Assembly: GCF_037094465.1 (NCBI RefSeq) | Contig: NZ_CP146609.1 | Location: 186,001-250,000 of the forward strand | Length of the DNA stretch: 64,000 nt | Direction of reading: 5' to 3' | Source of the DNA: Pseudodesulfovibrio sp. 5S69 | GTDB taxonomy: Bacteria > Desulfobacterota > Desulfovibrionia > Desulfovibrionales > Desulfovibrionaceae | In this document: positions 27,748-46,249 of the stretch, in pieces | Numbering within the stretch: position 1 is the stretch's first letter | Layout of the letters: every line of letters begins with the position of its first letter | Program-made: the position numbers and the translations under genes | The notes under the pieces: generated by a model | The model's input: the letters and a program-made list of their open reading frames with translations, nothing else | Told to the model about the DNA's origin: nothing | The model's database searches: none

Positions 27748-27807
27748 CACCCCTTCGGGGCGTTGCGGAAAGACCGCAACGTCCAAATCCGCTGTCCTGC
27801 GGATTTG
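27748..27807 (+). repeat. Hairpin repeat module G (copy 2)
   Basis: CCCCTTCGGGG, a hairpin GTTGC...GCAAC, and GTCCAAATCCGCTGTCCTGC with GGATTTG. Runs directly into the B palindrome at 27812. Confidence 0.6.
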
Positions 27808-27811
27808 TCGA

Positions 27812-27925
27812 GAGTGGGTCAGCTGTGCATTTTTCGAGGGTTCGCCTGACCGCAGCGTACCCCCGTACGTGAGGATTAGGCGGACCCTCGAAAAATGTGC
27901 AGATGACCCGCTGTCGGAAGCCGCC
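27812..27925 (+). repeat. Large palindromic repeat, family B (copy 1)
   Basis: Ends GAGTGGGTC ... GACCCGCT and a conserved tail to GCCGCC. Stem ATTTTTCGAGGG / CCCTCGAAAAAT, variable inner pairs TTCGCCT / AGGCGGA, and a conserved asymmetric tip with GACCGCAGCGTAC and GTACGTGAGGAT. Copies at 35702 and 46116 (-) keep ends and tip but have different, still pairing inner stems. Confidence 0.8.
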
Positions 27926-27953
27926 CCCCTGCGAAGCCGGACATACGCAAAGC

Positions 27954-27981
27954 CCCCCGAAAGCAACACGGCTTCCGGGGG
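27954..27981 (-). terminator. Intrinsic terminator of the liv operon
   Basis: Stem CCCCCGAAAGC / GCTTCCGGGGG (one mismatch, G-U in RNA); on the minus strand followed by GGCTTTG. Lies 27 bp beyond the livF stop. Confidence 0.65.
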
Positions 27982-28007
27982 ACCTACGAGCTCTATAACT
28001 TTGCCGT

Positions 28008-28730
28008 CTATTCGCCCAAATACGCTTTGCGTATATCAGGATTCGCCAACAACGCCTGAGCTTCGTCTTCCATGACGACGTTGCCTGTTTCAAGAACGTA
28101 GCCGCGAGTGGCGGCCTGGAGGGCGAGGTTGGCGTTCTGCTCGACCAGGACCACGGTGACGCCCTGCTCGTTGATCATCTTGACGATGTCGAAGATCTGC
28201 TTGACCAGGAGCGGGGCCAACCCCATGGACGGCTCGTCCAGGAGCAGGACCTTGGGGCGGCTCATGAGCGCCCGGGCCATGGCCAGCATCTGCTGCTCGC
28301 CGCCGGACAGGGTGCCGCCCAGTTGCTTGCGCCGCTCGCGCAGCTTGGGGAACAGGTCGAAGACGCGGTTCACGTCCTCCTTGACCCCGGCGGCGTCGCG
28401 GCGGAAGAACGCGCCCATGTCCAGGTTTTCGAGCACGGTCAGACGCGGGAAGATGCGCCGCCCTTCGGGCACCTGGCACAGCCCCATGGTCGGCAGGATG
28501 TCCGAGTTCACGGCGTTGATGCGCTCGCCCCGGTACAGGACGTCGCCCGAGACCGCCTTGACGATGTTGCAGATGGTCATCAGCGTGGTGGACTTGCCCG
28601 CGCCGTTGGCCCCGATGATGGAGACCACCTCGCCTTCAAAGACCTTCAGCGAGATGCCCTTCAGGGCCTGGATGCGGCCGTAGGCCGAGACCACGTTTTT
28701 CAGTTCGAGAATGGGCGTCTTGTCAGTCAT
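28008..28730 (-). CDS. livF: Branched-chain amino acid ABC transporter ATPase (LivF)
   Basis: A 240-residue ABC ATPase. Walker A GANGAGKSTTLM, Q-loop, signature LSGGEQQMLAMARAL, Walker B VLLLDEPSMGLAP and the H-loop region are intact. Short length without the LivG-type extension identifies the LivF partner. It is separated from livM by 234 bp that contain two pieces of the family A repeat, so it may have reduced or separate expression. Confidence 0.95.
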   Translation of the reverse strand: MTDKTPILELKNVVSAYGRIQALKGISLKVFEGEVVSIIGANGAGKSTTLMTICNIVKAVSGDVLYRGERINAVNSDILPTMGLCQVPEGRRIFPRLTVLENLDMGAFFRRDAAGVKEDVNRVFDLFPKLRERRKQLGGTLSGGEQQMLAMARALMSRPKVLLLDEPSMGLAPLLVKQIFDIVKMINEQGVTVVLVEQNANLALQAATRGYVLETGNVVMEDEAQALLANPDIRKAYLGE

Positions 28731-28740
28731 GTATGGTTGC

Positions 28741-28962
28741 TTTCCCCGGACCCCATCCCCTCTACCCTCCTAAACTTTTTAGGCCGCTTCGCGGAGAGGG
28801 GTGGTTGTCTGTAGTAGTATTCTCTATGGGCCGGACTTACGCCTTGCGCCCATCACGCCGCCATCTCGTCTTATGCTGCCCCCTTCCCCCTGGCGGCGCG
28901 CCAAAAAGTTCGGGAAGGGGGTCCGGGGGAGACCTCTTTCAAGAGGTTTCCCCCGGTTCTTT
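28741..28962. repeat. Split family A repeat between livM and livF
   Basis: 28741-28796 reads CCCCGGACCCCATCCCCTCT, CCTCCTAAACTTTTTAGGCC, GCTTCGCGG in plus orientation; 28893-28962 is a reverse piece (GCCAAAAAGTTCGGGAAGGG, ACCTCTTTCAAGAGGT hairpin). The two may be the ends of an inverted pair inserted into the operon. Confidence 0.65.
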
Positions 28963-28964
28963 TC

Positions 28965-30155
28965 TTAATCGGCTTCCTCGGACCGGCGGCCGACGCGTTT
29001 GGCGGGCCAGATGCCGGCCGGACGCACGAGCATCATCAGGGTCATGGCCCCGCCGAACACGAGCATGCGGTAGAGTTCGAATCCGCGGAAGAGCTCGGGC
29101 AGGGCCACCAGGGCGAGCACGCCGAGGATGACGCCGGGGATGGAGCCCATGCCGCCGAGGATGACCATGGCCAGGACCATGGCGGATTCCAGGAAAGTGA
29201 AGGACTCGGGGCCGACGAACTTCATGCGCGCGGCGAAGAACGCCCCGGCGAAACCCGCGAAGGTCGCGCCCATGGCGTAGGCCAGGAGTTTGAGCAGGAA
29301 GGTGTTCACGCCCATGAGCTCGGCCGCGGTCTCGTCCTCGCGGATGGCCTCCCAGGCGCGCCCGATGCGCGAATAGTTGAGCCGGTAGACCGCCAGGATG
29401 GTCACCACGGCCAGGGCGAGGATGACGTAGTACATGCTCGACAGGGAGCGGAACTCATAGCCGAAGAGCTCGGGCCTGGGAATGGACAGGATGCCGTTGG
29501 GCCCGTTGGTCAGGGACATCCAGTTGTTCAGGATGAGCCGGACGATCTCGCCGAAGCCCAGGGTGACGATGGCCAAATAGTCGCCGCGCATGCGCAGGGT
29601 CGGGTAGCCGATGATGCAGCCCGCGACGGCCGCGATGACGGCCGCGATGGGCAGGCAGAGCCAGAACGACAGGCCGTAATTGATGCTCAGGATGGCGTAG
29701 GTGTAGGCGCCCACGCCGTAGAAGGCGATGTACCCGAGGTCGAGCAGCCCGGCCAGTCCGACCACGATGTTCAGGCCCAGGCCGAGGCAGATGTAGATGA
29801 GCACGCTGATGGCCACGTCGTGGGCATAGCGCTGGGTGACCAGAGGATAGACTACGGCGGCAGCCAGGACGATGCCCAGCAGCAGCCATGTGGGGGCCTT
29901 TTCGTAGGCCCGGCTCAGCGCGTTGGTGGCCTGCTTGGCGGGTGTACCCACGGCGTCGAGGTAGCCCGCCTCCTTGACCTGATAGAAGAACATGATGAAG
30001 ACGGCGGCCACGGCCACGTAGCCGAAGACCTTGAAGGTCGCGGTGAACTCCAGTCCATCCGGCTTGATGCCGAGCAGGGGCCACAGCAGCAGCAGGAACC
30101 AGGCCAGCCCGACGCCGCAGGCCAGCCACAGTCGTTTAGACTCGCGTATCGTCAA
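28965..30155 (-). CDS. livM: Branched-chain amino acid ABC transporter permease (LivM)
   Basis: A 396-residue inner-membrane permease with about ten TM helices. The conserved loop AYEKAPTWLL is followed by LLDLGYIAFYGVGAYTYA, GDYLAIVTLGFGEIVRL and the cytoplasmic RIGRAWEAIREDETAAELMG helix that contacts the ATPases. The start is TTG at 30155 with GGGAGAG upstream, overlapping livH by 20 bp. Works with LivH, LivG, LivF and LivK. Confidence 0.94.
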   Translation of the reverse strand: MTIRESKRLWLACGVGLAWFLLLLWPLLGIKPDGLEFTATFKVFGYVAVAAVFIMFFYQVKEAGYLDAVGTPAKQATNALSRAYEKAPTWLLLGIVLAAAVVYPLVTQRYAHDVAISVLIYICLGLGLNIVVGLAGLLDLGYIAFYGVGAYTYAILSINYGLSFWLCLPIAAVIAAVAGCIIGYPTLRMRGDYLAIVTLGFGEIVRLILNNWMSLTNGPNGILSIPRPELFGYEFRSLSSMYYVILALAVVTILAVYRLNYSRIGRAWEAIREDETAAELMGVNTFLLKLLAYAMGATFAGFAGAFFAARMKFVGPESFTFLESAMVLAMVILGGMGSIPGVILGVLALVALPELFRGFELYRMLVFGGAMTLMMLVRPAGIWPAKRVGRRSEEAD

Positions 30156-31038
30156 CGTTCTCTCCCATGATGCCCGTGGGTTTGAAGTACAGCACGCCGA
30201 TCAGGATGATGAAGGCGAACACGTCCTTGTACTCGCCGGAGATGTATCCGGCGGCGAAGATTTCGACCATGCCGATGATCAGCCCGCCGACCAGCGCGCC
30301 GGTGATGTTCCCGATGCCGCCGAGCACGGCGGCGGCGAACGCCTTGATGCCGGGCACGAAGCCCATGGTATAGTTGACCGAGCCGTAGTACAGGCCGACC
30401 ATGATGCCCGCTGCGGCGGCCAGCCCGGCGCCCACGGCAAAGGTCAGGGCGATGATCCGGTTGGAGTTGATCCCGACCAGGGCGGACATGACCTTGTCCT
30501 GGGCCGTGGCGCGCATGGCCCGGCCTATCCGGGTCTTGAAGACCAGGATGTTCAGGGCCACGAGCAGGAAGGCGGTCAGGGCCACGATGAGAATCTGCAT
30601 GTAGGAGATGGAGATGGCCCCGATCTCGAACCCGCCGGAGGTGATCTCCGTGGGATAGGGCCGGTCGTACACGCCCTGGGTGAGCATCAGCCCGTTCTGC
30701 AGGAAGATGGACATGCCCAGCGCGGACAGCAGCGCGGCCAGGCGCGAGGCCTGCCGGAGCGGCTTGTAGGCGAGCTGCTCGACGGCCATGGCCAGCAGGG
30801 CGCAGTAGCCCATGGACAGGACCAGGGAGATGGCCAGGCAGGCGTAGGGGTTCACCCCTTGCGAGGAAAGATAGGAGATCAGGATCACGCCCATGTAGCC
30901 GCCCGCCGCAAAGAACTCGCCGTGGGCGAAGTTGATGAGCTGGATGATGCCGTAGACCATGGTGTAGCCCAGGGCGATGAGCGCGTAGACGCCGCCGAGG
31001 GTGATGCCGTTGATCAGCTGTTGGAGAAAAAAGTCCAT
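30136..31038 (-). CDS. livH: Branched-chain amino acid ABC transporter permease (LivH)
   Basis: A 300-residue permease with about eight TM helices. N-terminal MDFFLQQLINGITLGGVYAL and INFAHGEFFAAGGYMG are LivH signatures; RIGRAMRATAQDKVMSALVG is the coupling helix. It starts 62 bp after livK across a strong hairpin and overlaps livM, consistent with coupled translation of the two permeases. Confidence 0.95.
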   Translation of the reverse strand: MDFFLQQLINGITLGGVYALIALGYTMVYGIIQLINFAHGEFFAAGGYMGVILISYLSSQGVNPYACLAISLVLSMGYCALLAMAVEQLAYKPLRQASRLAALLSALGMSIFLQNGLMLTQGVYDRPYPTEITSGGFEIGAISISYMQILIVALTAFLLVALNILVFKTRIGRAMRATAQDKVMSALVGINSNRIIALTFAVGAGLAAAAGIMVGLYYGSVNYTMGFVPGIKAFAAAVLGGIGNITGALVGGLIIGMVEIFAAGYISGEYKDVFAFIILIGVLYFKPTGIMGENVDDTRV

Positions 31039-31051
31039 GTTGTTCCAGTAT

Positions 31052-31079
31052 CCGGGACCCCGCTTGAGCGGGGTCCCGG
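31052..31079 (-). promoter_or_regulatory. Intercistronic hairpin between livK and livH
   Basis: Perfect 13-bp stem CCGGGACCCCGCT / AGCGGGGTCCCGG with a two-base loop and no T-tract. Expected to protect the livK transcript end or terminate partially so that binding protein exceeds permease. Confidence 0.65.
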
Positions 31080-31100
31080 TTGGTTAGACGGGTTGAAGGT

Positions 31101-32252
31101 CTAGAGCTTTTGGCCGGTCAGGGAGTTCCAGTAGGGCACGAACTTGCCGTCCTGGACCTTGTACACGGTGTAGTTGGAGCCGGAGTCGCCGTTCTCCTCG
31201 TACTTGATCTGCTTGGAGGCGCCGGTGAAGTCGAGCTTGAGCAGCGCGTCGCGGACCTTGGCGGGATCGGTGGTGCCCGCATCCTTGACGGCCATCAGGT
31301 ACGCGGTGGCGGAGTCGAAGGCATAGGCGGAGTAGGCGCCGGGCTCGTTGCCGGTCTTGGCCTTGTACTTGGCCAGGAACTCCTTGTACTTGGGAGCGTT
31401 CTTGTCGATGGCGCCGAAGGTGCAGAACATGCCCTCGGCATCACCCTTGGCGATCTCGATGAGTTTCGGATGGTAGACGGCGTCCTGGCCCATGAGGATG
31501 GCGTCGATGCCCATGCGCTTGGCCTGGATGACCATGAGCGCGCCGGTGGCGGAGTTCTGCAGGGAGATGTAGAGCAGGTCCGGATGGGCGGCCTTCACCT
31601 TGGTCAGCACGGCGGAGTAGTCCTTGTCGCCCTGGTTGACGTGGTCGTGTTCCAGGACCTTGATGCCTGCGGCCTCTGCGGCCTTGGCGACGCCTTCGGC
31701 CAGGCCCTGGGAGTAGGTGGTCTTGTCGTCGACGATGAAGATGGTCTTCACGCCCTCGACGTCCTTCATGAACTTGACGGCGGCCGGGGCCTGGTGGTCG
31801 TCACGACCGCAGGTGCGGAACATGTACTTCAGGCCGCGTTCGGTGACCTTGGGGTTGGTGGAGGCCGGGGTCAGCATGAAGATGTTCTCCTCGGCCAGGG
31901 TCTCGGAAGCGGGAATGGTCGAGCTGGAGCAGTACGCGCCGACAACGGCGGTGACCTTCTCGTTGATCAGCTTGTTGGCTGCGGCAACGGCCTGCTTCGG
32001 GTCGCAGGCGGTGTCTTCGGAAATGATCTCGATCTTGGAGAAGCCGGGGATGCCGCCGGCCTCGTTGAAGACCTCCACGGCGATCTCGGCACCCTGGCGG
32101 ATGTCGTTGCCGTCTGCGGCGTAGGGGCCGGTCAAGGGGGACATGGTGCCGATCTTGAGGACTTTCTCGGCTTTTTGCTCTTCGCCGCCGCAGCCTGCCA
32201 GGAGCAGGCCCAGAGCGAGCAGGGCAACTGCGAGTACCAGTAAACGTTTCAT
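31101..32252 (-). CDS. livK: Branched-chain amino acid ABC transporter substrate-binding lipoprotein
   Basis: A 383-residue periplasmic binding protein (Leu/Ile/Val type). Signal peptide MKRLLVLAVALLALGLLLAG with lipobox LLAGC, so Cys21 is probably lipidated. The fold's hallmark KIGTMSPLTGPYAADGNDIR is followed by GAEIAVE and VVGAYCSSSTIPAS. The start at 32252 (GGAGAG upstream) removes a non-signal extension. Between livG and livH in the operon; ligand could be Leu, Ile, Val or another amino acid. Confidence 0.94.
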   Translation of the reverse strand: MKRLLVLAVALLALGLLLAGCGGEEQKAEKVLKIGTMSPLTGPYAADGNDIRQGAEIAVEVFNEAGGIPGFSKIEIISEDTACDPKQAVAAANKLINEKVTAVVGAYCSSSTIPASETLAEENIFMLTPASTNPKVTERGLKYMFRTCGRDDHQAPAAVKFMKDVEGVKTIFIVDDKTTYSQGLAEGVAKAAEAAGIKVLEHDHVNQGDKDYSAVLTKVKAAHPDLLYISLQNSATGALMVIQAKRMGIDAILMGQDAVYHPKLIEIAKGDAEGMFCTFGAIDKNAPKYKEFLAKYKAKTGNEPGAYSAYAFDSATAYLMAVKDAGTTDPAKVRDALLKLDFTGASKQIKYEENGDSGSNYTVYKVQDGKFVPYWNSLTGQKL

Positions 32253-32292
32253 AAACACTCTCTCCATTCGTTGCGGTTCAGCCAGCCTCTCT

Positions 32293-33048
32293 TTACTGGC
32301 CCAAATATGCCTCAATCACGTCGGGGTTCTTCTGAATCTCTTCAGGCAGCCCCTCGGCGATCATTACGCCGTGGTCGAGTACGACGATGCGGTTGCAGAT
32401 GCCCATGACGACTTTCATGTCGTGTTCGACCATGAGCACGTTGATGCCCAGGTCGGTGATCCGGCCGATGGACTCCATCAGCTCCTTGGACTCGGCCGGA
32501 TTCAGACCGGCTGCGGGCTCGTCCAGCAGGATGGTATGCGGCTCGCTGGCCAGGGCACGGGCGATTTCGAGCCTGCGCTGGTGGCCGTAGGGCATGTTCG
32601 AGGCCACCTCGTCGGCCCGGCGGCCCAACCCCATGAAGTCGAGCGCCTTCTGGGACTTCTCGATGATCCGTTCCTCCTCGCGCCGCTGTGAGGGGCTGCG
32701 CAGGATCGCGCCCGCCACGCCGGATTTGGAACGGCTGTGCTGGGCGACCATGCAGTTCTCCAGCGCGGTCATGTTCTGGAAGAGGCGGATATTCTGGAAA
32801 GTCCGGGCGATGCCCATGGACAGGACCTGATAGGGCCTGAGCCCGGTGATTTTCGTGCCGTCGTAGGAGACCGAGCCACTGGACGCCTTGTACACGCCGG
32901 TGATAACGTTGAACACCGTGGTCTTGCCCGCCCCGTTGGGACCGATCAGCCCCACGACCTCGCCCTCGGACACGGAAAAGGCCACATCGGTCAAGGCCTG
33001 CAACCCGCCGAAGCGGACACAGATATCGTCAAGAGTGAGATTTGCCAT
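32293..33048 (-). CDS. livG: Branched-chain amino acid ABC transporter ATPase (LivG)
   Basis: A 251-residue ABC ATPase with Walker A GPNGAGKTTVFN, the divergent LivG signature PYGHQRRLEIARALA, and Walker B TILLDEPAAGLNP. The helical insert (ENCMVAQHSRSKSGVAGAIL) is typical of LivG. First gene of the G-K-H-M-F operon; the ribosome site is weak (TTAGGT). C-terminal VIEAYLGQ tail is conserved in the family. Confidence 0.95.
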   Translation of the reverse strand: MANLTLDDICVRFGGLQALTDVAFSVSEGEVVGLIGPNGAGKTTVFNVITGVYKASSGSVSYDGTKITGLRPYQVLSMGIARTFQNIRLFQNMTALENCMVAQHSRSKSGVAGAILRSPSQRREEERIIEKSQKALDFMGLGRRADEVASNMPYGHQRRLEIARALASEPHTILLDEPAAGLNPAESKELMESIGRITDLGINVLMVEHDMKVVMGICNRIVVLDHGVMIAEGLPEEIQKNPDVIEAYLGQ

Positions 33049-33394
33049 ATTTACCTAATTAAATAGTAGAAATCATCCGCCACGCCAAGAGGGGCAGATC
33101 CCCTTTCTGCATTTCAATCGTCTGAAATGACGGTCCTTTTGGGATTAGACGCTATTACTTACCTTATTTGGCAAAAAAAGTCTAATGCTCGCTTAATTTC
33201 TGGTTCACCAGGTGAAAATTTGGCAAAATTGAAAAAAGAGTGAATTTTATTCATCGACTGTCCGGGATTACGCGGGCAAAAATGCGTTTTATTGTGAATT
33301 CGTGACTTCCGGTCACGATCGTGCCAGAATCTGCATGGTATTCCCGGTGCGCCGGACGGCGCACGTGTGTTCAGACAGACAAAGGAGCTCAACA
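33049..33394. other. Divergent regulatory region liv / SDR gene
   Basis: 346 bp, AT-rich in its middle, no gene. Contains several dyads: CATTTCA-N6-TGAAATG at 33110-33129, TTCACC-A-GGTGAA at 33204-33216, and CGTGAC-N5-GTCACG followed by CACGATCGTG at 33301-33323. Promoters for livG (minus) and the SDR gene (plus) must lie here; no clean minus-35/minus-10 pair was found. Confidence 0.5.
33204..33216. promoter_or_regulatory. Candidate operator palindrome
   Basis: Perfect TTCACC-A-GGTGAA, central in the liv/SDR divergent region. Compatible with a dimeric regulator such as an Lrp- or FadR-like protein, but the regulator is unknown. Confidence 0.45.
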
Positions 33395-34150
33395 ATGGCA
33401 AAAACCATACTCATCACCGGCGCCACCGCCGGGTTCGGACAGGCCATGGCCCACCGCTTCGCGGCAGAGGGCTGGAATCTCGTCATCACCGGCCGCCGCG
33501 CCCAGCGCCTTGAGGAACTCAAGGCCGCGCTCGCCCCTGCCGAGGTGTACACCCTGGCGTTCGACGTGCGCGACCGCGGGGCGTGCGAGCAGGCCATAAA
33601 AACCCTGCCCGGCGCGTTCGCGAACATCGACGTGCTGGTCAACAACGCGGGCCTGGCATTGGGCCTGGAGCCCGCCCAGGCGTGCGATCTGGACGACTGG
33701 GAGACCATGATCGACACCAACATCAAGGGGCTGACCTACATGACCCGCGCCGTGCTGCCGGGCATGGTCGAGCGCAACACGGGCCACGTGGTCAACCTCG
33801 GGTCCGTGGCCGGGACCTACCCCTATCCGGGCGGCAACTGCTACGGCGGCACCAAGGCGTTCGTGAACCACTTCTCCAAGAACCTGCGCGCCGACCTGCT
33901 CGGCACCAAGGTCCGGGTGACCAACATCGAGCCCGGCCTGTGCGAGACCGAGTTCTCCGTGGTCCGGTTCAAGGGCGACAAGGCGGCTGCGGACAAGGTC
34001 TACGAGGGCACCCAGCCGATCACCCCCGTCGACATCGCCGAGTGCGTCTTCTGGACCACCAACCTGCCCGCCCACGTGAACATCAACTCCCTTGAGGTCA
34101 TGCCCGTGCAGCAGGCCTTCGCTCCATTCGCCATTTCGCGCGACAAGTAG
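33395..34150 (+). CDS. Short-chain dehydrogenase/reductase (YdfG-like)
   Basis: A 251-residue classical SDR. NAD(P) motif TGATAGFG, NNAG (residues ~85), catalytic Ser in NLGSVAGTYPYPG and YGGTK (Tyr-x3-Lys). The sequence is closest in style to YdfG-type NADP-dependent 3-hydroxy acid dehydrogenases (serine, 3-hydroxypropionate and malonic semialdehyde reduction), including IEPGLCETEFS. ATG 33395 has AAAGGAG upstream. Arg after the glycine motif (TGRRAQRL) suggests NADP. Substrate is inferred. Confidence 0.92.
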   Translation: MAKTILITGATAGFGQAMAHRFAAEGWNLVITGRRAQRLEELKAALAPAEVYTLAFDVRDRGACEQAIKTLPGAFANIDVLVNNAGLALGLEPAQACDLDDWETMIDTNIKGLTYMTRAVLPGMVERNTGHVVNLGSVAGTYPYPGGNCYGGTKAFVNHFSKNLRADLLGTKVRVTNIEPGLCETEFSVVRFKGDKAAADKVYEGTQPITPVDIAECVFWTTNLPAHVNINSLEVMPVQQAFAPFAISRDK

Positions 34151-34173
34151 ACCACACTGCCGCAAGACCAAAC

Positions 34174-34204
34174 AAAAGGCCCTCTCGAACCGAGAGGGCC
34201 TTTT
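34174..34204. terminator. Bidirectional terminator
   Basis: 14-bp stem AAAAGGCCCTCTCG / CGAGAGGGCCTTTT with a three-base loop. Confidence 0.92.
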
Positions 34205-34273
34205 TTCCTGCCGTCCCGCCATCCCCAAGCAGCATTCCAGTATCGTTGCTCAGTCGCGGCGGGCGGTGTGAAA

Positions 34274-34840
34274 TTACGACCTGCCCTTGAAGCCGGCAGC
34301 CCCTATTCCGGCCCCGGCGGTCTTGACCGAGGTGACGAAGGCGTTATGCTGGAGCATCCGGTTGCCGGGCTGATCGGCCATGTCGAGGCGGTCCGGATCG
34401 TCGGGCATGAGGTCGCCCCGCCCGTTCTTCTCCTGGTCGCCCGGCCCGCCGAAGGCCTGATTCTCGGCCTTCTTAGCCGCAGCCTGATCCTTGGCCTTTT
34501 CGACGATGTTCTCGCCCATGGGCATCTTGGTGATCTTTCTGATCTGCTTCTGGATGTCCCTGAGTTCGGACTCCTGACCGGAAGTCAGGCCGTCCTCGGC
34601 CTGGGCGGCGAGAGCCTCGGCCCGGCTCTGGAGCATCTCGACCTTGGACTTGTCCTCCTCGGACATCCCGCCGGGCACGTACCCGGAGCCCGGCCGCGCC
34701 TCCTGGCGCTGCCGCTCCTCTTCCGCGGCGATGGAGCCGAAGAGGTCCTTGCGCCCCCCCTCTTCCCGTCCCGCACGAGCCTTGCTGATGAGGTTTTCGA
34801 AGCCGTAGGGTGACGACGTCAAATCACCTGATATATTCAT
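34274..34840 (-). CDS. Protein of unknown function with coiled-coil segment
   Basis: A 188-residue hydrophilic protein without signal peptide or TM helix. Residues ~60-115 are charged and heptad-like (SEEDKSKVEMLQSRAEALAA ... ESELRDIQKQIRKITKM), the middle is Lys/Ala-rich, and the C-terminus (MLQHNAFVTSVKTAGAGIGA) is Gly/Ala-rich and hydrophobic-leaning. The start at 34840 is supported by GGGAG; earlier Met/Val codons are less likely. Its layout (polar start MNISGDLTSSPYGFENLISK) resembles orphan proteins of this bacterial group; no function is assigned. Confidence 0.7.
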   Translation of the reverse strand: MNISGDLTSSPYGFENLISKARAGREEGGRKDLFGSIAAEEERQRQEARPGSGYVPGGMSEEDKSKVEMLQSRAEALAAQAEDGLTSGQESELRDIQKQIRKITKMPMGENIVEKAKDQAAAKKAENQAFGGPGDQEKNGRGDLMPDDPDRLDMADQPGNRMLQHNAFVTSVKTAGAGIGAAGFKGRS

Positions 34841-35082
34841 ATTCACTCCCTGGGTAAATATTTCTCCGTCCCACTGATAAGCAAGAACCGCTCCGGACAT
34901 TTTTACCCATCCTCCCGCCGACACACACTATTCCCACGAAACAACCCAAAGTATGCCTACCAGGACACAATCCCCCCACACCTGTGGCATCAAGACCCAC
35001 GCTATGCTAAATATTTCCACCTTAACCCGATCTTACTATCTTTTAAAAAATACCCGCCCCTCACCTTCTCAGCCTCCCCCAC

Positions 35083-35682
35083 GGAGCGCCTTTGAGGGCA
35101 ATGCCCCAAACAGCAACTCTCACCCCACCTCCCCATGGAGCGCCTTTGGGGGCAACGCCCCCCAAACAGCAACTCTCATACCCCCTCCCCATGGAGCACC
35201 TTTGGGGGCAACGCCCCCCAAACAGCAACTCTCACCCCACCTCCCCATGGAGCGCCTTTGGGGGCAACGCCCCCAAACAGCAACTCTCATACCCCTCCCC
35301 ATGGAGCGCCTTTGGGGGCAACGCCCCCCAAACAGCAACTCTCATACCCCCTCCCCATGGAGCACCTTTGGGGGCAACGCCCCCCAAACAGCAACTCTCA
35401 CCCCACCTCCCCATGGAGCGCCTTTGGGGGCAACGCCCCCCAAACAGCAACTCTCATACCCCCTCCCCATGGAGCGCCTTTGGGGGCAACGCCCCCCAAA
35501 CAGCAACTCTCATACCCCCTCCCCATGGAGCACCTTTGGGGGCAACGCCCCCCAAACAGTAACTCTCACCCCACCTCCCCATATGGAGCGCCTTTGGGGG
35601 CAAAGCCCCCCAAACAGCAACTCTCACCCCACCTCCCCATATGGAGCGCCTTTGGGGGCAACGCCCCCAAACAACGGCTCTC
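35083..35682. repeat. Tandem array of 11 units, ~56 bp, derived from hairpin module D
   Basis: Units start with GGAGC(G/A)CCTTTG at 35083, 35137, 35193, 35249, 35303, 35359, 35415, 35471, 35527, 35585 and 35643 (spacing 54-58). Each holds a hairpin TTTGGGGGC / GCCCCCAAA and ACAGCAACTCTC. Units alternate between CACCCCACC and CATACCCC tails and between GCG and GCA variants in a three-unit rhythm (35249-35358, 35415-35526). Sits in a 1.05-kb gap between an unknown gene and qmoD; 34841-35082 is AT-richer and contains no gene. Confidence 0.9.
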
Positions 35683-35701
35683 ACCGCACGGAGGCTGGGG
35701 A

Positions 35702-35817
35702 GAGTGGGTCAGATGTGGATTTTCCGGGGGCCGCTTTGACCGCAGCGTACCCCCCAGTACGTGAGGATCAAAGCGGCCCCCGGAAAATTCGCAGATGGCC
35801 CGCTATCGCCAGCCGCC
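35702..35817 (+). repeat. Large palindromic repeat, family B (copy 2)
   Basis: GAGTGGGTC to GCCGCC. Inner stem GGGGGCCGCTTTGA / TCAAAGCGGCCCCC is different from copy 1 yet perfectly paired; tip GACCGCAGCGTAC and GTACGTGAGGAT conserved. Immediately follows the last unit of the D array. Confidence 0.8.
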
Positions 35818-35841
35818 ACCCCCGGACCGACGGCGCAAAAA

Positions 35842-35870
35842 AAGGCCCCGCGCATATGCGCGGGGCCTTG
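35842..35870. terminator. Terminator of the apr-qmo operon
   Basis: Perfect palindrome AAGGCCCCGCGCAT and its complement, flanked by an A-run on one side and TTGTTTTT on the other. On the minus strand it follows the qmoD stop by 24 bp. Confidence 0.9.
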
Positions 35871-35893
35871 TTTTTGCGTCGGATGGTCCGGGG

Positions 35894-36547
35894 CTACCAA
35901 TCGCCGCCGAACGCATCGGAACCGAGACCAAAATCGGCCTCGGGCTCGCCGCCGACAGCCGGGCCGTCTGCGGAAGCGTCGCCAGCGGGGGCGGCAGCGC
36001 CATCACCGGCCACGCCGGCCACGACCACGCCCTGGCTCTTGACCTTTTCCACTTCGGCCATAAGGTCGTTAAGCTTCTTGGTCATCTCGTCGAGCTTGGT
36101 GGAGGCCACGGTGACCTTCTGCTCACCGGCGGCATTGGCCGCGTCCACGGTCTTGATCTTGGCTTCCATGGGTCCGATCTTGGCGGCCAGTTCCTTTTTC
36201 TCGGCTTCCAGGGTCTCGACCTGGGCCTTGAGGGCCGCGTTGTCGGCCTTGAGAGCGGCCAGGATGTCCAGGACGGCCTTGGCGCGGACGGCCTCGGACT
36301 CGGGCAGGGCCTCGATCTTGACCTGGTTGCCGAGCTTGGAGATGTCGCCCTCGGCGTAGGCGGTCAGGCCGGGTTCCTGTTCGTAGATCCAGGCTTTGGA
36401 CAGGGCCTGCGCCACAGGGGCGACGTCGGCGTCCAAAGTTTCAGCCTGGGTGATGTAAGCCAGCATATCGAGCTGAGTCTGGTCGGCGGCCTCGCCGCGC
36501 AGCACAGACACGAAAGCGTTCATGGGGAATACCTTAGCTTCAGCCAT
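35894..36547 (-). CDS. qmoD: QmoD-like protein, promoter-distal gene of the qmo operon
   Basis: A 217-residue soluble protein. N-terminal ~90 residues form a helical domain (NAFVSVLRGEAADQTQLDML ...), residues ~95-170 a long coiled coil (LKADNAALKAQVETLEAEKK ...), and the C-terminus is Gly/Ala/Asp-rich and probably disordered. It lies 50 bp after qmoC on the same strand and ends at the operon terminator. In Desulfovibrio vulgaris a hypothetical gene in this position accompanies qmoABC and was removed with it in a deletion that abolished growth on sulfate; the symbol rests on this position, not on a recognised domain. A scaffold or assembly role is plausible but unproven. Confidence 0.75.
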   Translation of the reverse strand: MAEAKVFPMNAFVSVLRGEAADQTQLDMLAYITQAETLDADVAPVAQALSKAWIYEQEPGLTAYAEGDISKLGNQVKIEALPESEAVRAKAVLDILAALKADNAALKAQVETLEAEKKELAAKIGPMEAKIKTVDAANAAGEQKVTVASTKLDEMTKKLNDLMAEVEKVKSQGVVVAGVAGDGAAAPAGDASADGPAVGGEPEADFGLGSDAFGGDW

Positions 36548-36597
36548 TTGATGCCTCCTTAACTAAGTAAGCTTCGTTTGTATGTTCACCCAGGCGA

Positions 36598-37869: not shown

Positions 37870-37879
37870 GCCGTACCTC

Positions 37880-40162: not shown

Positions 40163-40165
40163 TGG

Positions 40166-41401
40166 TTACCTCCCTACCACGGTTTGAATCGCCTTCATCG
40201 CGGCGGCGGTGCCGGACTGGGCGGTCTTCATGACATCAAGAGGCTGCTTGGCGCAACCGGCGGCGATGATGCCCTCGCCGTCTATGACGAAACCGTCGGC
40301 GTCGATGGCTCCGGCCGGAACCTGGAGGCCGGCGCAGCTGGGCTGCATGCCGGTGGCCAGCACGACCATGTCGTACTTCTCGTCGGTCTTGATGCCGGTC
40401 AGGGCATTTTCCACGGTGACGATCGGATTGCCGTCGGCGTCCTCGACGATGGCGGCCACCTTGCCCTTGACCAGGCTGAGCTTGTCGTCAGCCTCGGTGA
40501 TGGACTTGAACTTGTCGTAGCGGCCGGGGGTGCGCAGGTCGATGTAGTAGATCGTCGCGCTCGCGTCGGAACGCTCCCGGACATAGCGGACATGCTTGAG
40601 CGAAGCCATGCAGCAGATGTACGAGCAGTAGTTCAGGTGGTTCTGATCGCGGGAACCGGCGCACTGGACAAAGGCGATCTTCTGGGGCTCGGCGCCGTCG
40701 GAAGGCCTCTTTATCTTGCCGCCGGTCGGGCCGTTGGGCGCGCACAGACGCTCGAACTGCATGTTGGTGACCACGTTCTTCAGCTTGCCCCCGCCCAGGT
40801 TGGTCAGGTTGGCCACGTCGTAGGGCTTCCAGCCGGTGGCCACGACGATGGCGCCGACGGCCAGATCGATGGACTTGGGCGCGTCATCGGTATCCACGGC
40901 GTCGTACGGGCAGGCGTTCTTGATGGCGGCCAACTCGGTCTCGGAGGCATTCTCGGCGTCCACCACGTAGCGCATGGGGAACATGAAGGGATGGGTCTTG
41001 TACGCCAGGCCGCGGGAGCCGGTGCCGAAGTCGAACTCGGAAGTCACCTTGGTGGAGGTGGCCTTCTCGCACTCGCCGCAGGCGGTACACTTTTCGTTCA
41101 CGTAGCGCGGGCGCTGCGTGATCTTCACGTCGTAGTTGCCGGCCGAGCCGGAAACCGACGTGACGTCGGCCATGGTGATGACCTTGACGTTGGGGTTGTT
41201 TTTGATGCGCTGGAACTGAATCTCCAGACCGCAGGAGGGGGGGCACAGCTTGGGAAAATACTGGTTCAGCTGCGCAACCCGTCCACCGAGGTAGGGATTG
41301 GTTTCAACGATGTACACCTCGTAGCCGATTTCGGCGGCTTCGAGGGCGGCGGTGATTCCTGCGAATCCTCCGCCTACGACGAGAATACTGTTATTCGACA
41401 T
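40166..41401 (-). CDS. qmoA: Quinone-interacting membrane-bound oxidoreductase subunit A
   Basis: A 411-residue HdrA-like flavoprotein. N-terminal SILVVGGGFAGITAALEAAE binds FAD; PKLCPPSCGLEIQFQRI and CTACGECEKAT are characteristic, and the C-terminal region keeps VLATGMQPSCAGLQVP. Known role: soluble Qmo subunit close to APS reductase AprBA. First qmo gene, 165 bp after aprA across a strong hairpin. QmoA-specific features (shorter than QmoB, no ferredoxin pair) are met. Confidence 0.96.
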   Translation of the reverse strand: MSNNSILVVGGGFAGITAALEAAEIGYEVYIVETNPYLGGRVAQLNQYFPKLCPPSCGLEIQFQRIKNNPNVKVITMADVTSVSGSAGNYDVKITQRPRYVNEKCTACGECEKATSTKVTSEFDFGTGSRGLAYKTHPFMFPMRYVVDAENASETELAAIKNACPYDAVDTDDAPKSIDLAVGAIVVATGWKPYDVANLTNLGGGKLKNVVTNMQFERLCAPNGPTGGKIKRPSDGAEPQKIAFVQCAGSRDQNHLNYCSYICCMASLKHVRYVRERSDASATIYYIDLRTPGRYDKFKSITEADDKLSLVKGKVAAIVEDADGNPIVTVENALTGIKTDEKYDMVVLATGMQPSCAGLQVPAGAIDADGFVIDGEGIIAAGCAKQPLDVMKTAQSGTAAAMKAIQTVVGR

Positions 41402-41515
41402 TCTCTTAACTCCTCCCGAATAAAGTTGAGGCTCAAGCCAAAAAATGGCCTAAACCCGGACCGGGAGCGGTTTTCCCGGCCCGGCTTCAGACCATTTTAG
41501 CCCCGGTAATTTTAA

Positions 41516-41545
41516 GAGAGCGCGGGTCCGGGGACCCGCGCTCTC
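41516..41545 (-). promoter_or_regulatory. Intercistronic hairpin between aprA and qmoA
   Basis: GAGAGCGCGGGTCC pairs perfectly with GGACCCGCGCTCTC (14 bp, two-base loop); on the minus strand it is followed by TTAAAATT. A second small hairpin CCGGG/CCCGG lies at 41460-41480. Suggests partial termination or 3'-end protection of aprBA mRNA. Confidence 0.7.
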
Positions 41546-41566
41546 GGGGTGATCATTACCTAATGC

Positions 41567-43564
41567 TTAGGCGTCGGGGATGATCTTGACGTAGGGCTTC
41601 TTGAAGACGGTGGTCACGCCGGTGGCGGGATCGTAGGTGGAGTTACAGAAGCACTTCCACTTGGAGTCATCCAGGCCCATGAAGTCGCCGCGGTAGTAGA
41701 AGCCCGGGTAACGGGATTCCTCGCGGAACTCGATGTGCTGCATGTGCAGGCGGACGGTCCACAGGCGATGGAACTGCTCCCAGCAGCGCATCAGCTCGTG
41801 CAGGTCACGGGCGGCGAGCTTCTTGGAGTCTTCTTCCATCATGCCGAGCAGCCAGAAGCCGGTGTTCAGCAGAGCCTTGGAGGTCATGTACAGGGTGCCG
41901 ACGCCACCGCCGTATTCATCGGTGCACTTGATGAGGCGCATCATGAAGTTGTGCGGGGTGATGTAGGCGGGGTTCACGACGGGATCGGTGGAACCGCCCT
42001 TGTTCTCCAGGTAGGTGTACATGGGCTGGTAGATTTCCTTGGCCAGATCAGCAGCGTTTTCCTTCAGGGTCGGGGTGAAGTCCTTGTGGTCGACACACCA
42101 ACGGACCAGCTGCTTGCCGACGATGCGGCCTTCAGCGTGGGAACCGGAGGAGAACTTGTGGCCGGAGGCGCCGACGCCGTCAGCGCAGGTGAACAGGCCG
42201 TTGACGGTGGTCATACGGTTGTAGACCTTGCCGTTGTCGGCTTTGACCTTGTAGGAATCCGGGACCCAGGCTTCGTCCGGACCGGAAACCCAGATGCCGC
42301 AGCAACCGGAGTGGGAACCCAGGAGGTAAGGCTCGGTGGGCATGATCTCGGAACCGCGATCCTCGGGAGCGCAGTTGGTGGCGGCCCACAGGTTGGCCTG
42401 GCCGACACACATGTCGAGGAAGTCTTCCCAAGCCTCGGACTCGAGGTGCTTCCACTCGGGACCGGTCAGGTCGCCGTTGACGGTGTTCAGCAGGGCGGTC
42501 TTGGTGTCCATGAAGATCGGGCCGCGGCCTTCACGCATTTCACGGAGCATCATGTGGTTGCGCAGGCAGGTGGGGATGATGTGACCCTTGGCGTAGCCGC
42601 GATCCTCGTAAGGCTTCAGCATGGCGCGGTTGGTCTCGCAGTAGTCCTCACCCTTGTAGTTGGTCGCCTTGGCCTTGAAGAGCAGGAACCAGGCGCCGAC
42701 CGGGCCGTAACCGTCCTTGAAGCGGGCGGGGACGAAGCGGTTTTCCATCATGGTCATCTCGGCGCCGACCTGAGCACACATGGTGTAGGTGGAACCGGCG
42801 TTCCAGACGGGGTACCAGGCGCGGCCCATGCCCTCACCGGTGGAGCGGGGGCGGTACACGTTGACGGCGCCGCCACAGGCGACGACGGCGGCGTTGCACT
42901 TGTAGACGTAGACCTTGTTCTCACGGGTGGAGAAGCCGACGGCACCGGCGATGCGGTTGGGCTCGTTGGCGTCCAGGAGCATCTTAACGATGAACACGCG
43001 CTCGACGTAGCGGTCTTCGCCCAGGGAGTTCTTGGCGGCTTCAGCAACGATGCACTTGTAGGACTCACCGTTGATCATGATCTGCCAGCGGCCGGAGCGG
43101 ACCGGAGCGTCGCCGTTGCGGATGGCGAGGCCTTCGGCCTTGGCTTTGGCGCCGTCGAGGTTCTTGCCGTCTTTCTTGACCCAAACGGGGAGGCCCCATT
43201 CTTCGAAGAGGTGGACGGAATCGTCAACGTGGCGGCCCAGGTCGAAGATCAGGTCTTCGCGGACGATGCCCATGAGGTCGGTGCGGACCATGCGGACGTA
43301 ATCGTCCGGGTCGTTCTCACCGCAGTAGGTGTTGATGGCGGACAGGCCCTGGGCAACGGCGCCGGAGCGCTCCAGAGCGGCCTTGTCGCAGAGCATGATC
43401 TTCAGGGAAGGATCGACTTTGTCGGCCCAGCGGACAGCTTCGAAAGCGGCACCGCAGTTACCCATGCCGCCGCCGACCATGAGGATATCAACGGTCTGTT
43501 CGATGATTTCCGGCTCGGCGAGAGCAACACCCTTGGAAGCTTCTTTGATGGGAAGCAGAGGCAT
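41567..43564 (-). CDS. aprA: Adenylylsulfate (APS) reductase alpha subunit
   Basis: A 665-residue FAD enzyme of the fumarate-reductase/succinate-dehydrogenase family that reduces APS to sulfite and AMP. N-terminal DILMVGGGMGNCGAAFEAVR binds FAD; LCDKAALERSGAVAQGLSAI, NRFVPARFKDGYGPVGAWFL, and SHSGCCGIWVSGPDE are highly characteristic of dissimilatory AprA. Length matches the known enzyme. Second gene after aprB (65-bp gap). Cytosolic, functioning with Qmo. Confidence 0.99.
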   Translation of the reverse strand: MPLLPIKEASKGVALAEPEIIEQTVDILMVGGGMGNCGAAFEAVRWADKVDPSLKIMLCDKAALERSGAVAQGLSAINTYCGENDPDDYVRMVRTDLMGIVREDLIFDLGRHVDDSVHLFEEWGLPVWVKKDGKNLDGAKAKAEGLAIRNGDAPVRSGRWQIMINGESYKCIVAEAAKNSLGEDRYVERVFIVKMLLDANEPNRIAGAVGFSTRENKVYVYKCNAAVVACGGAVNVYRPRSTGEGMGRAWYPVWNAGSTYTMCAQVGAEMTMMENRFVPARFKDGYGPVGAWFLLFKAKATNYKGEDYCETNRAMLKPYEDRGYAKGHIIPTCLRNHMMLREMREGRGPIFMDTKTALLNTVNGDLTGPEWKHLESEAWEDFLDMCVGQANLWAATNCAPEDRGSEIMPTEPYLLGSHSGCCGIWVSGPDEAWVPDSYKVKADNGKVYNRMTTVNGLFTCADGVGASGHKFSSGSHAEGRIVGKQLVRWCVDHKDFTPTLKENAADLAKEIYQPMYTYLENKGGSTDPVVNPAYITPHNFMMRLIKCTDEYGGGVGTLYMTSKALLNTGFWLLGMMEEDSKKLAARDLHELMRCWEQFHRLWTVRLHMQHIEFREESRYPGFYYRGDFMGLDDSKWKCFCNSTYDPATGVTTVFKKPYVKIIPDA

Positions 43565-43629
43565 AATATTTCTCCTAGTATTTAACGTGATTCAAGTAGT
43601 CTAATCAGACAAGGATTCGCAAACCGGCA

Positions 43630-44130
43630 CTAGACCAGGTTGGCGTAATCGTCCATCTTCCACTCTTTCTTCAGGTCGGCTTCGGTCACGGAAGCCTCTT
43701 CCATGGCGGTGGCCAGGGGAGCCTTCAGAGCGGACTCGGTGAAGAGCAGCTCGGAGTCCAGGTCGCCGGGCTCGGGCTTGCCGTCGAAGGGCTTGATCGA
43801 ACCTTCAGCAGTGGTGCGGATGGGGAACTTGAAGCGTTTCACGCTGCCATTACGGAATTTGATGGTCCACATGATGTCTTCAGCGGAACGCATCGGGATG
43901 GAGGTACCACCCATAGGGGCGAAGTCGGCGTACGGACGGGCTTCAATAGCGCCCTGGGGGCAAATTTTCACGCAGGAATAACATTCCCAGCAAGCGGACG
44001 GTTCCTGGTTGTAGGCCTTCATTTCGGCGGGATCCAGGATCATCAGATCGTTAGGGCAAATGTACATGCAAGCGGTCTTTTCGCCACCCTTGCAGCCGTC
44101 ACATTTTTCCGGGTTAACAAAGGTCGGCAT
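43630..44130 (-). CDS. aprB: Adenylylsulfate (APS) reductase beta subunit
   Basis: A 166-residue iron-sulfur protein with two [4Fe-4S] sites: CDGCKGGEKTACMYICPND and CWECYSCVKICPQGAIEARP. The C-terminal tail wraps around AprA in known structures. It starts the apr-qmo operon. ATG 44130 is preceded by AGGAGGAG. The N-terminus MPTFVNPEKCDGC is essentially the family consensus. Confidence 0.99.
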   Translation of the reverse strand: MPTFVNPEKCDGCKGGEKTACMYICPNDLMILDPAEMKAYNQEPSACWECYSCVKICPQGAIEARPYADFAPMGGTSIPMRSAEDIMWTIKFRNGSVKRFKFPIRTTAEGSIKPFDGKPEPGDLDSELLFTESALKAPLATAMEEASVTEADLKKEWKMDDYANLV

Positions 44131-44226
44131 AACTTCTCCTCCTAAATAGGGTTTTATTATTCACAATAACCGACATCCTCTACCTAAACAAAAATCGGCA
44201 CCCGTTTTAAGGCGGGCGGAATTGGG

Positions 44227-44253
44227 ATTAGCAAGACGAAACACCCTTGTCAA
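44227..44253 (-). promoter_or_regulatory. Candidate promoter of the apr-qmo operon
   Basis: Minus strand TTGACA (44253-44248), 15-bp spacer, GCTAAT (44232-44227). The spacer is short, but this is the best match upstream of aprB. Downstream in the leader lies TTATT-GTG-AATAA, a small dyad with the TTGTGA half-site common to CRP/FNR-type regulators. Confidence 0.45.
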
Positions 44254-44606
44254 CGTGAAAGTGAATTTTTGAACAAGCGTATATCGTCAACCGTATCTCG
44301 GGTTTTGAGCCGATGGCCGGAAAAGGCCCGGAATACAGGCGTTCGGGTACGCCGCGAGGCGGCGCCTGCCAATAAAAAAACACCTGTTGAAACCCATACC
44401 GTTTTTAGTTTAAACGAACAAAGAAATGCAAGCCTTTTTTCAATTTATAGAGTGTTATTGCGGTGACAACACAACAAGCTGAAAATACACGTAAAAAATA
44501 CACCAAAACAGGGCCTGTTTTCTAGACTTTCTCCCGAGAAGGTCTACCTCCCCCCCTGAGTGTGCAATCAGGCGCAAATTGTTGCAGGACGGGCGGAAAA
44601 AAGCGC

Positions 44607-44651
44607 TTGACACGACTTTCACAAACAGCCAATAAAGGCGGACCCTATAAT
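44607..44651 (+). promoter_or_regulatory. Candidate sat promoter region
   Basis: TTGACA at 44607-44612 with AATAAA 18 bp downstream (44631-44636) is one possible promoter; a perfect TATAAT at 44646-44651 lacks a good minus-35. The leader then contains a CATGGT/ACCATG hairpin (44663-44697). The 44131-44741 divergent gap (611 bp) otherwise holds no credible gene. Confidence 0.45.
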
Positions 44652-44741
44652 TGGGAAATACTCATGGTCATCCAAGCGGCCGAGGCGGCTCACCATGAAT
44701 CAAGGCAATGGAAACACTGACAAACTATTTAGGAGGCTTAC

Positions 44742-46028
44742 ATGTCTAACCTCGTAGCACCTCACGGTGGTAAAGGTCTCGTTTGCTGTCTGCTCGAAGG
44801 CGCTGAGCTCGACGCTGAAATCAAAAAGGCCGCTGGCCTGAAGACCCTCGACATTTCCGATCGCGCCAAGGGCGACCTGATCATGATGGGCATCGGCGGC
44901 TTCTCTCCGCTGAACGGCTTCATGAAGAAGGCCGACTGGGCCGGCGTCTGCGAAAAGTTCCTGATGGCCGACGGCACCTTCTGGCCGGTCCCCATCACCC
45001 TCGACACCGATGACGAAGACGTCAAGGTCGGTGACGAGGTCGCCCTGAAGGCCAAGGACGGCACCGTCTACGCCACCATGAAGGTCGAAGAAAAGTACGA
45101 GATGACCGAAGCCGACAAGAAGTGGGAATGCGAACTCGTCTACAAGGGCGAGGGCGAAGATTCCGCTGACGACAAGTTCTGGGAAGTCGCCATGGAAGAC
45201 CATCCCGGCGTCCAGATGGTCATGGCCCAGGGCAAGTACAACCTGGCCGGCCCGGTCAAGGTCCTCTCCGAGGGCGACTACGCCAAGCGTTTCCCGGGCG
45301 TCTACCTGACCCCCGCCCAGATCCGCGCCGAGATGGAAAAGCGCGGCTGGTCCAAGGTCGCCGCTCTGCAGCTGCGCAACCCCATGCACCGCTCCCACGA
45401 GTTCCTGGCCAAGATCGCCATCGAAGTGTGTGACGGCTGCGTCATCCACTCCCTGATCGGCAACCTGAAGCCGGGCGACATTCCGGGCAGCGTGCGCATC
45501 AAGTGCATCCAGACCCTGATCGACGGCTACTTCGTGGCCGACAACGTCATCAACGCCGGCTACCCCCTGGACATGCGTTACGCCGGTCCCCGCGAAGGCC
45601 TGCTGCACGCCACCTTCCGCCAGAACTACGGCATCAACAACATGCTCATCGGCCGTGACCACGCCGGTGTCGGCGACTTCTACGGCCTGTTCGAGGCCCA
45701 GGAGATCTTCAAGAGGATCCCCTACGTCACCGAAGCCTGCCCCGAGCCCGGCAAGGCCCTGCTCTGCCAGCCGATGAACATCGACTGGACCTTCTACTGC
45801 TACAAGTGCGACGGCATGGCTTCCATGCGCACTTGCCCACACACCAAGGAAGACCGCGTCATCCTGTCCGGCACCAAGCTGCGCAAGGCCCTGTCCGAAG
45901 GCGCCGAGGTCCCGGATCACTTCGGCCGCGACGAAGTCCTGGTCATCCTCCGCGACTACTACGAAAACCTCACCGAGAAGGTCGAGGTCAAGATGCAGAA
46001 GGCCGCTTCCGGTCAGGACATGAAGTAA
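44742..46028 (+). CDS. sat: Sulfate adenylyltransferase (ATP sulfurylase, dissimilatory)
   Basis: A 428-residue homodimeric-type ATP sulfurylase activating sulfate to APS. N-terminal PUA-like domain (~1-160), then the catalytic domain with [11 protein letters not shown] (the HxxH motif), the [12 protein letters not shown] loop and the zinc-binding [15 protein letters not shown] typical of sulfate reducers. AGGAGGCTTAC precedes the ATG. Codon use is strongly biased (for example GGC, ATC, CTG with few rare codons), as for the other highly expressed sulfate genes. Divergent from aprBA. First committed step of sulfate respiration. Confidence 0.99.
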
Positions 46029-46042
46029 GTCCTGCCGGTCGG

Positions 46043-46104
46043 TTTTGCTGACCACTCAAGGGGAGGTTGCTGACGCAACCTCCCCTTTTCGTTTGTCAGC
46101 AAAA
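46043..46104 (+). terminator. Nested terminator of sat
   Basis: Inner 13-bp stem AAGGGGAGGTTGC / GCAACCTCCCCTT (46058-46087) followed by TTCGTTT; an outer stem TTTTGCTGAC / GTCAGCAAAA encloses it. Two-layer structure suited to a highly transcribed gene. Confidence 0.9.
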
Positions 46105-46115
46105 CGCGACCGGGC

Positions 46116-46230
46116 GGCGGCGCGGGATAGCAGGCCGTCTGCGAATTTTTCGAGGGGGGCTCCGATCCTCACGTACAGGAAGTACGCTGCGGTCGGAGCC
46201 CCCCTCGAAAAATCCACATCCGACCCACTC
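46116..46230 (-). repeat. Large palindromic repeat, family B (copy 3, reverse)
   Basis: On the minus strand GAGTGGGTCGGATGTGG, ATTTTTCGAGGG, inner stem GGGCTCCGA / TCGGAGCCC, tip GACCGCAGCGTAC TTCCT GTACGTGAGGAT, tail to GCCGCC. Adjacent to a module D copy, as copies 1 and 2 are. Confidence 0.8.
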
Positions 46231-46249
46231 TTCCGCACCTCGATACGTC

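Follow-up and report, generated by a model that had tools for sequence, protein, structure and literature searches.

A 64,000-nucleotide stretch of the Pseudodesulfovibrio sp. 5S69 genome, the window analyzed here (positions 186001-250000 of G000, the 4.16-Mb single-contig host genome), contains three copies of a palindromic repeat of ~120-130 bp in which a variable core surrounds a conserved, asymmetric tip. We infer, with slightly more than even confidence, that this non-autonomous repeat acts like a very small mobile or recombining element. In our reading it is a repeat of the MITE (miniature inverted-repeat transposable element), REP (repetitive extragenic palindrome) or RPE (Rickettsia palindromic element) kind that is marked by its tip, and its folded strand is probably handled by a putative enzyme.

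An earlier note, drawn from the letters of the window, had placed three copies there, and the sequence confirms them at those places (Table 1) together with the common ends, the 4-6 base loop and the asymmetric tip that it had ascribed to them. Its grouping of the copies into one tip-marked palindrome family stands, but its statement that the stems differ completely goes too far, since TTTTTCGAGGG, beside the variable part, is common to copies 1 and 3. The covariance model R1, built from 68 aligned copies from three species, lengthens each window copy to 128-130 bp; the scores that it gives to these copies come from a model built in part from the same copies. The tip pattern, CGCAGCGTAN{3,10}TACGTGAGG, matches the window three times, compared with no match in 100 dinucleotide shuffles.

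Most of the 36 copies in G000 fold as a single hairpin of ~120 nt, a fold not obtained where there is a 57-bp insert or where the arms are swapped or one of them is damaged. From the outside in, the hairpin is composed of the outer arms (GGCTT..AAGCC followed by GAGTGGGTC..GCCCGCTATC), two recurrent mismatches, an A/T-rich stretch, the variable core of ~16-20 bp and the tip. The GGCTT..AAGCC arms are paired in 59-67 of the 68 aligned copies, depending on the pair, and constitute terminal inverted repeats of the type that defines a MITE. As folded by RNAfold, the tip begins with a C-G pair and an internal loop, GCA/GA, which are followed by G.U, C-G, G-C, T-A and A-T pairs and a short loop. The loop strand in relatives is mostly GCA, GAA or GGA with a closing pair that is G.U or G-C, and the tip as a whole mostly takes the form C-GVA-GCGTA-loop-TACGY-GA-G, some copies having an extra base on each side. 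Changes in the inner stem of the tip are compensated (TGTA..TACA). At one G000 locus (L412, G000:C1:426398-426625) the tip is now palindromic almost throughout (CCGCAACGTA..TACGCTGCGG), which is what copying of one arm onto the other would give. By eye, a second motif also recurs in the outer stem, left-arm GGCG opposite right-arm AACG (L012, L074, L211, L220, L225, L250 and others).

The 36 exact tips of G000 are divided between the forward (17) and reverse (19) strands. Among the 60 genomes searched, G000 included, the exact tip is present in 15, all of them of the host's own genus, and its count among species of that genus ranges from 0 to 36. R1, with 93 candidates scored per genome, has matches in 21 of 37 genomes (E <= 1e-4) and 87 matches in G000, some of which are perhaps the two strands of one palindrome. 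Nine of the G000 matches to R1 that lack an exact tip were inspected; they bear variant tips, and in two of these the inner-stem change is again compensated. The further copies that the earlier note expected of a genuine family are thus numerous in G000 and its relatives.

The behavior of the repeat is most visible at orthologous sites. G012 is ~90% identical to G000 and syntenic with it, and over a 390-kb stretch nine of the 13 elements of G000 are matched by a tip, and two more by a variant tip, at the corresponding G012 position; at the other two sites G012 has a partly lost hairpin in one case and no hairpin in the other. At G000:4364 the outer arms are nearly base-for-base those of G012 but enclose another palindrome as inner stem and tip loop, and at G000:386644 and G000:58639 the tip points the opposite way within its flanks when compared with G012. 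Matching by flanks among G000, G012 and G032 gave 38 pairs, 26 of them with both flanks longer than 250 bp. Core identity is below 0.7 in seven of these 26 ortholog pairs, and in five the tip has the opposite orientation with respect to the flanks, one of the five being maybe a second, neighboring element. For the 21 pairs that remain when the five with a 57-bp insert or swapped arms are left out, identity is 76.5% and 76.8% in the two 8-base bins next to the tip, 95.9% over the next 7 bases and 84-92% farther out, and the loop is identical in 5 of the 21. The corresponding values for random non-orthologous pairs are 60%, 63%, 86% and 76-82%, with the same loop in 12%. Moreover, one core type is found at five G012 sites, at one of them inverted, in outer arms that are not all alike, and chimeric cores with unmatched arms are present in both G012 (L125) and G000 (L045). 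The ortholog swaps, the occurrence of the same core in different arms and the chimeras together indicate that copies trade palindromic cores with one another, in tracts that surround the tip. The 38 G000 copies compared still fall into 31 core clusters, and with core types so numerous something must also keep diverging cores paired.

Exchange of this kind changes how covariation in the stem is to be read. Across the 68 aligned copies 93.4% of 3523 cells are paired, and the observation that the opposite arm changes to match the stem, made by the earlier note for three copies, holds over all of them, with 33 of 53 stem pairs changed on both sides. Cells with a double change number 378, compared with a shuffled mean of 121 and with 153 and 139 when the partners are slid by -1 and +1, and none of 500 shuffles, which take no account of kinship among the copies, reaches the observed values. 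Base-pair covariation therefore exceeds that of shuffles, as in a structured RNA, but it is confounded by the block exchange of cores and by relatedness. The result shows co-change and leaves its cause apart. The excess over shuffles speaks only in part against neutral palindrome drift, since block exchange of cores also yields co-change, and the conclusion that selection acts on pairing is not borne out as it was argued from the arm changes: cores, comprising both arms and the tip, swap as blocks, and co-change then arises without base-by-base selection. The "compensatory" change is thus in part block exchange of palindromic cores.

The two strands of the hairpin are not equivalent. In 98 copies from three genomes of the host's genus, stem G.U pairs on the tip-forward strand outnumber those on the opposite strand by 501 to 114, but the counts are 145 and 130 in diverse taxa and are reversed, 12 to 38, in Rickettsia, so that the asymmetry looks like shared ancestry. 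An argument for RNA nature from wobble asymmetry was accordingly dropped as a general one, as the diverse taxa show none. The strand evidence that is valid beyond the genus is the closing pair of the tip itself: the tip-forward strand has G.U or G-C at this position, and the opposite strand A.C or G-C.

The 16-base tip is found in 7 of 297 genomes of the phylum (5 of 199 genera, the host's own included). A wider scan, for the 16 tip bases only and with one genome per species, gave at least 116 stretches and at least 80 loci from several phyla, where by our own estimate about a thousand matches would be expected by chance. Because so many tip matches would be expected by chance, the arms matter as evidence, and complementary arms were not demanded by the scan: among the matches listed, 77 of 99 measurable tips, spread over 65 of 78 loci, are flanked on either side by 45 bases that form 22 or more pairs between the arms. 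Of 20 control CGTA..TACG stems taken at these loci, 5 also reach 22 pairs, and those five bear tip variants. By record title, armed tips belong to Rhizobiales, Sphingomonadales, Rickettsia, Holosporales, Acidocella, Pseudomonas, Arcobacter, Paenibacillus, Alkaliphilus, a Bacteroidetes and a Saccharibacteria bin, some of the records being metagenome bins that could be mis-binned. Tips without arms, such as those in Amycolatopsis, Bathyarchaeota, Eremiobacterota and Comamonadaceae, look like chance. In genomes of the host's family the tip hairpins resemble one from Desulfovibrio desulfuricans, and in other species of the genus one from Pseudodesulfovibrio. The number of tips in 37 genomes picked for holding one ranges from 1 to 159 (the highest being 159, 79 and 71), with 27, 71 and 41 copies in three records titled Rickettsia, and the reversed pattern is absent from all 37. 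The 159 exact tips are those of Paenibacillus camelliae (G363, the genome of L198), and many of those listed lie ~185 bases apart. Nine viral contigs carry the tip and seven of them the long hairpin, six of these being near-identical (L399-L404); the element may also reside in or beside prophages. A looser pattern, CGNAGCGTA..TACGYGAG, was found in 13 of the 297 genomes and its reversed control in 7 genomes, and single matches to it were set aside as no evidence.

Judged by gene calls that are an open reading frame (ORF) heuristic, except in annotated plasmids, copies of the repeat sit near stop codons. In the diverse set, which leaves out eleven Paenibacillus loci, the nearest stop is near the right end of 24 and near the left end of 4 of 39 placed hairpins, and of 27 and 8, respectively, of 56 after the filter was changed. 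The same comparison gives 13 versus 1 in G000 and 9 versus 3 in G032. Ten of 30 plasmid matches were examined and nine of these are annotated; in seven of the nine, convergent genes end 2-45 bp to the right of the match, and in the remaining two, genes end 8 and 35 bp to its left. A further 37 hairpins from four genomes have the stop on the right in 12 and on the left in 9 cases (codirectional, 8 versus 3). A fixed orientation to the stop codon, weakened by these four genomes and by G012 (see below), was retained as a tendency, and our claim is of a preference for gene 3' ends with an orientation tendency and no rule.

We propose that the tip would fold on one strand and that its internal loop, GVA/GA, would be the recognition site of a putative trans-acting hairpin-processing enzyme. 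Processing of the tip would lead to ectopic repair from another copy, and such repair would spread cores between sites while the arms remain palindromic; gene 3' ends would be the places where insertions land or are tolerated. More tentatively, and in the awareness that it may well prove wrong, we extend this proposal to a superfamily across several phyla, in which many palindromic repeat families described genus by genus would be mobilized by one mechanism that reads the folded single-stranded C-GVA-GCGTA-loop-TACGY-GA-G tip, the hairpin being exchanged or inserted at gene 3' ends.

A number of observations weigh against an enzyme-driven mobile element. The tip is not strictly invariant, since GTA, GCT and GCAA forms are also found, as is a GCC/AA loop. 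Its orientation is not uniform either, the stop lying right versus left of the hairpin in 6 versus 4 of 20 G012 copies (codirectional, 5 versus 6) and in 0 versus 4 in G379, and no stop lying near it in G231. At the 13 sites of the 390-kb stretch the visible events are exchange, not recent jumping, and no clean new insertion with target duplication was found: the candidate empty sites, L059 and L060, could equally be deletions and show no duplication. At L060, compared with G012 C4 near 393325, G000 has two hairpins and G012 one small hairpin, AGGCTTGGGAGAGCAAGCCGC, that is, an empty site or a deletion. Random non-orthologous copies are likewise more alike in their outer arms than in their cores, so that family conservation explains part of the identity profile. 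As for the enzyme, the Y1/REP-associated transposase that the earlier note had thought of is not in evidence, no Y1 (IS200-like) transposase being detected in G000 with PF01797 (0 matches) in a search that was positive in 5 of 14 control genomes, and RVT_1 matches one G000 protein, at a single locus (2186351). SbcD is an obvious hairpin nuclease, but it was found with TIGR00619 neither in G000 nor in 8 of 9 other genomes of the genus, using a model whose cut-off was passed in 8 of 14 control genomes only.

On this distribution SbcCD was rejected as the tip nuclease. G011 has SbcD and no R1 match, and G014 has neither; SbcD is present in the tip-bearing Paenibacillus (G363) and Pseudomonas (G368), so that its absence is no requirement for carrying the tip. 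The sole RVT_1 match of G000 (L179, G000:C1:2186351-2186962) lies in a 621-aa ORF, which we take to resemble a reverse transcriptase of the retron type that has additional sequence at its C terminus.

The covariation and the proximity to stop codons could also be the marks of a functional RNA in 3' untranslated regions, a hairpin that acts in the mRNA (in stability or end formation, or through RNase III or a tip-binding protein) and whose pairing is kept by selection. The right-end excess of stops in diverse taxa (24 versus 4; 27 versus 8) and seven of the nine annotated plasmid cases are in keeping with this, and a Geobacter family whose central palindrome matches is reported as predicted short RNA elements (PMC2700814). 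We nevertheless regard an RNA function as unlikely, since the mRNA of the adjacent convergent gene carries the strand with the A.C closing pair and not the one with G.U or G-C, the wobble asymmetry is not general, G012, G231 and G379 show no orientation bias or a reversed one, the exact-tip number runs from 0 to 36 among species of one genus and 5 of the 26 ortholog pairs have the tip turned around with respect to its flanks. Searches of Rfam gave nothing near a gathering score over the three window copies at E up to 10, the weak matches at the right end of copy 2 being to Leu_leader (35789-35871, 27.6 bits where 50 are needed) and isrJ (35793-35869, 22.5 where 37 are needed), and at gathering scores nothing over the tips in 16 other loci.

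Exchange tracts of differing length, the chimeric cores of L125 and L045, the nearly perfect palindrome at the tip of L412 and the sharing of most sites in the 390-kb stretch with the sister species would all fit passive palindromes, that is, old intergenic repeats made alike by no more than ordinary RecA conversion and replication template switching between arms, with the tip as shared homology and no dedicated enzyme. We give this explanation, too, a low probability: homology conversion within one genome would not place the same tip on unrelated arms in several phyla, and the changes in the inner stem of the tip are compensated. A conventional MITE derived from an insertion sequence (IS) whose transposase uses hairpin ends, or a member of the RAYT (REP-associated tyrosine transposase)/REP group, would account for a size and dispersal like those of ERIC, RUP, Correia and RPE as these are described in the accessible text of PMC2229807, yet it seems to us very improbable, as PF01797 has no match in G000, conservation peaks at the tip (by which the aligned copies had also been chosen) and no target duplication was found, although no search was made for a parent IS. 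The reading that we retain is that of a tip-marked repeat whose folded strand a putative enzyme probably handles.

The hairpin repeats have recurring companions. Module A, a short hairpin of the form TGGAGCG-hairpin-ACAGC, lies upstream of each window copy (Table 1); in the array before copy 2 its pattern starts at 35136, 35248, 35302, 35414, 35470, 35584 and 35642. Genome-wide it is found no more than 200 bases upstream in 25 of the 36 G000 copies and within 150 bases downstream in none of the 36, and its stem sequence also varies from copy to copy. Module A may be another repeat family, one that accompanies the hairpin repeats. In 4 of the 36 copies (L031, L048, L054, L062) an alternative upstream module, CAAATCCGC..GCGGATTTG with its neighbors, replaces the usual left flank, and it is seen in the window at ~27775-27815. 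A recurring insert of ~57 bp (AGTGAATTGTAGGCGAG..) breaks one arm in L033, L043, L045, L047 and L050, and also in L016.

Table 1. Hairpin repeats, their tips and module A in the window (window coordinates).
Feature	Position	Strand	Basis
Hairpin repeat copy 1 (outer arms, variable core, tip)	27801..27928	+	model R1, 112.1 bits
Tip of copy 1, conserved and asymmetric, CGCAGCGTA..TACGTGAGG	27851..27874	+	tip pattern match
Hairpin repeat copy 2	35691..35820	+	model R1, 128.2 bits
Tip of copy 2, conserved	35741..35766	+	tip pattern match
Hairpin repeat copy 3	46113..46241	-	model R1, 119.2 bits
Tip of copy 3, conserved	46167..46191	-	tip pattern match
Module A upstream of copy 1	27664..27700, end approximate	+	start from pattern match
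Module A array, at least 7 short hairpins, upstream of copy 2	35136..35690, end approximate	+	pattern matches
Module A upstream of copy 3	46254..46290, 5' end 46290, other end approximate	-	pattern match

How small palindromic repeats that have no transposase spread through bacteria has long been asked. A motif that is short, asymmetric and bound to a structure, and that recurs across distant phyla, is bait for a protein that binds or cuts the tip, and in the core swaps at orthologous sites nature has recorded the tracts over which exchange took place near the tip of a hairpin.

A search with the tip letters in open-access paper texts gave nothing relevant among the titles listed; such a search misses supplements and figures, and it missed a family in Geobacter. 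The earlier note recognized no described family, but this related-looking Geobacter family was published in 2009. Some tip hairpins are possibly copies already named RPE, Bru-RS, RIME or CIR. The Bru-RS repeats are ~100 bp in length. Bru-RS1 and Bru-RS2 of Brucella are repeated palindromes in a relative of tip-bearing taxa, and the comparison with them is by the description in the accessible text (PMC2266754).

As far as the text at hand of the Geobacter source goes, the family comprises 24 "predicted short RNA elements" of G. metallireducens, multicopy palindromes (PMC2700814; also PMC2996986) with similar sequences in other Geobacter species and in Desulfotalea (PMC2700814), and its members, like the tip hairpins, are intergenic and dispersed. 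Of the 19 bases of its printed central palindrome, GRCGTAGCGCTGCTACGCC (PMC2700814), a run of 17, CGTAGCGCTGCTACGCC, is found unchanged in the tips of three copies from G005, a genome of the host's genus (L420, L421, L423). The match is itself palindromic and so maybe partly convergent. Judging from these shared letters, the Geobacter family may be a relative of the tip hairpins.

Small palindromic repeats without a known transposase are a known kind (PMC2229807, PMC3733652): in the accessible portions of PMC2229807, RPE, ERIC, RUP and Correia/NEMIS are dispersed, ~100-200 bp long and form long stem-loops. They are reported as separate families, are compared here by description only and, in the accessible part of PMC2229807, come with no mention of a tip common to several phyla. 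The available text of PMC3733652 describes GTAG and CGTC REPs as palindromic and dispersed in several phyla, the CGTC repeats being seemingly without a dedicated transposase and CGTC-1 and CGTC-4 of R. conorii corresponding to RPE-6 and RPE-4, respectively. In that same text, GTAG and CGTC REPs are 20-40 bp long, with stems of 5-13 bp and a terminal tag, whereas the repeat described here is ~128 bp long, has 53 pairs and is conserved at its tip; GTAG REPs, moreover, are associated with transposase genes (PMC3733652), whereas G000 has no PF01797 match. Set beside these systems, what appears to be new is an asymmetric tip common to several phyla, together with the exchange of cores around that tip.

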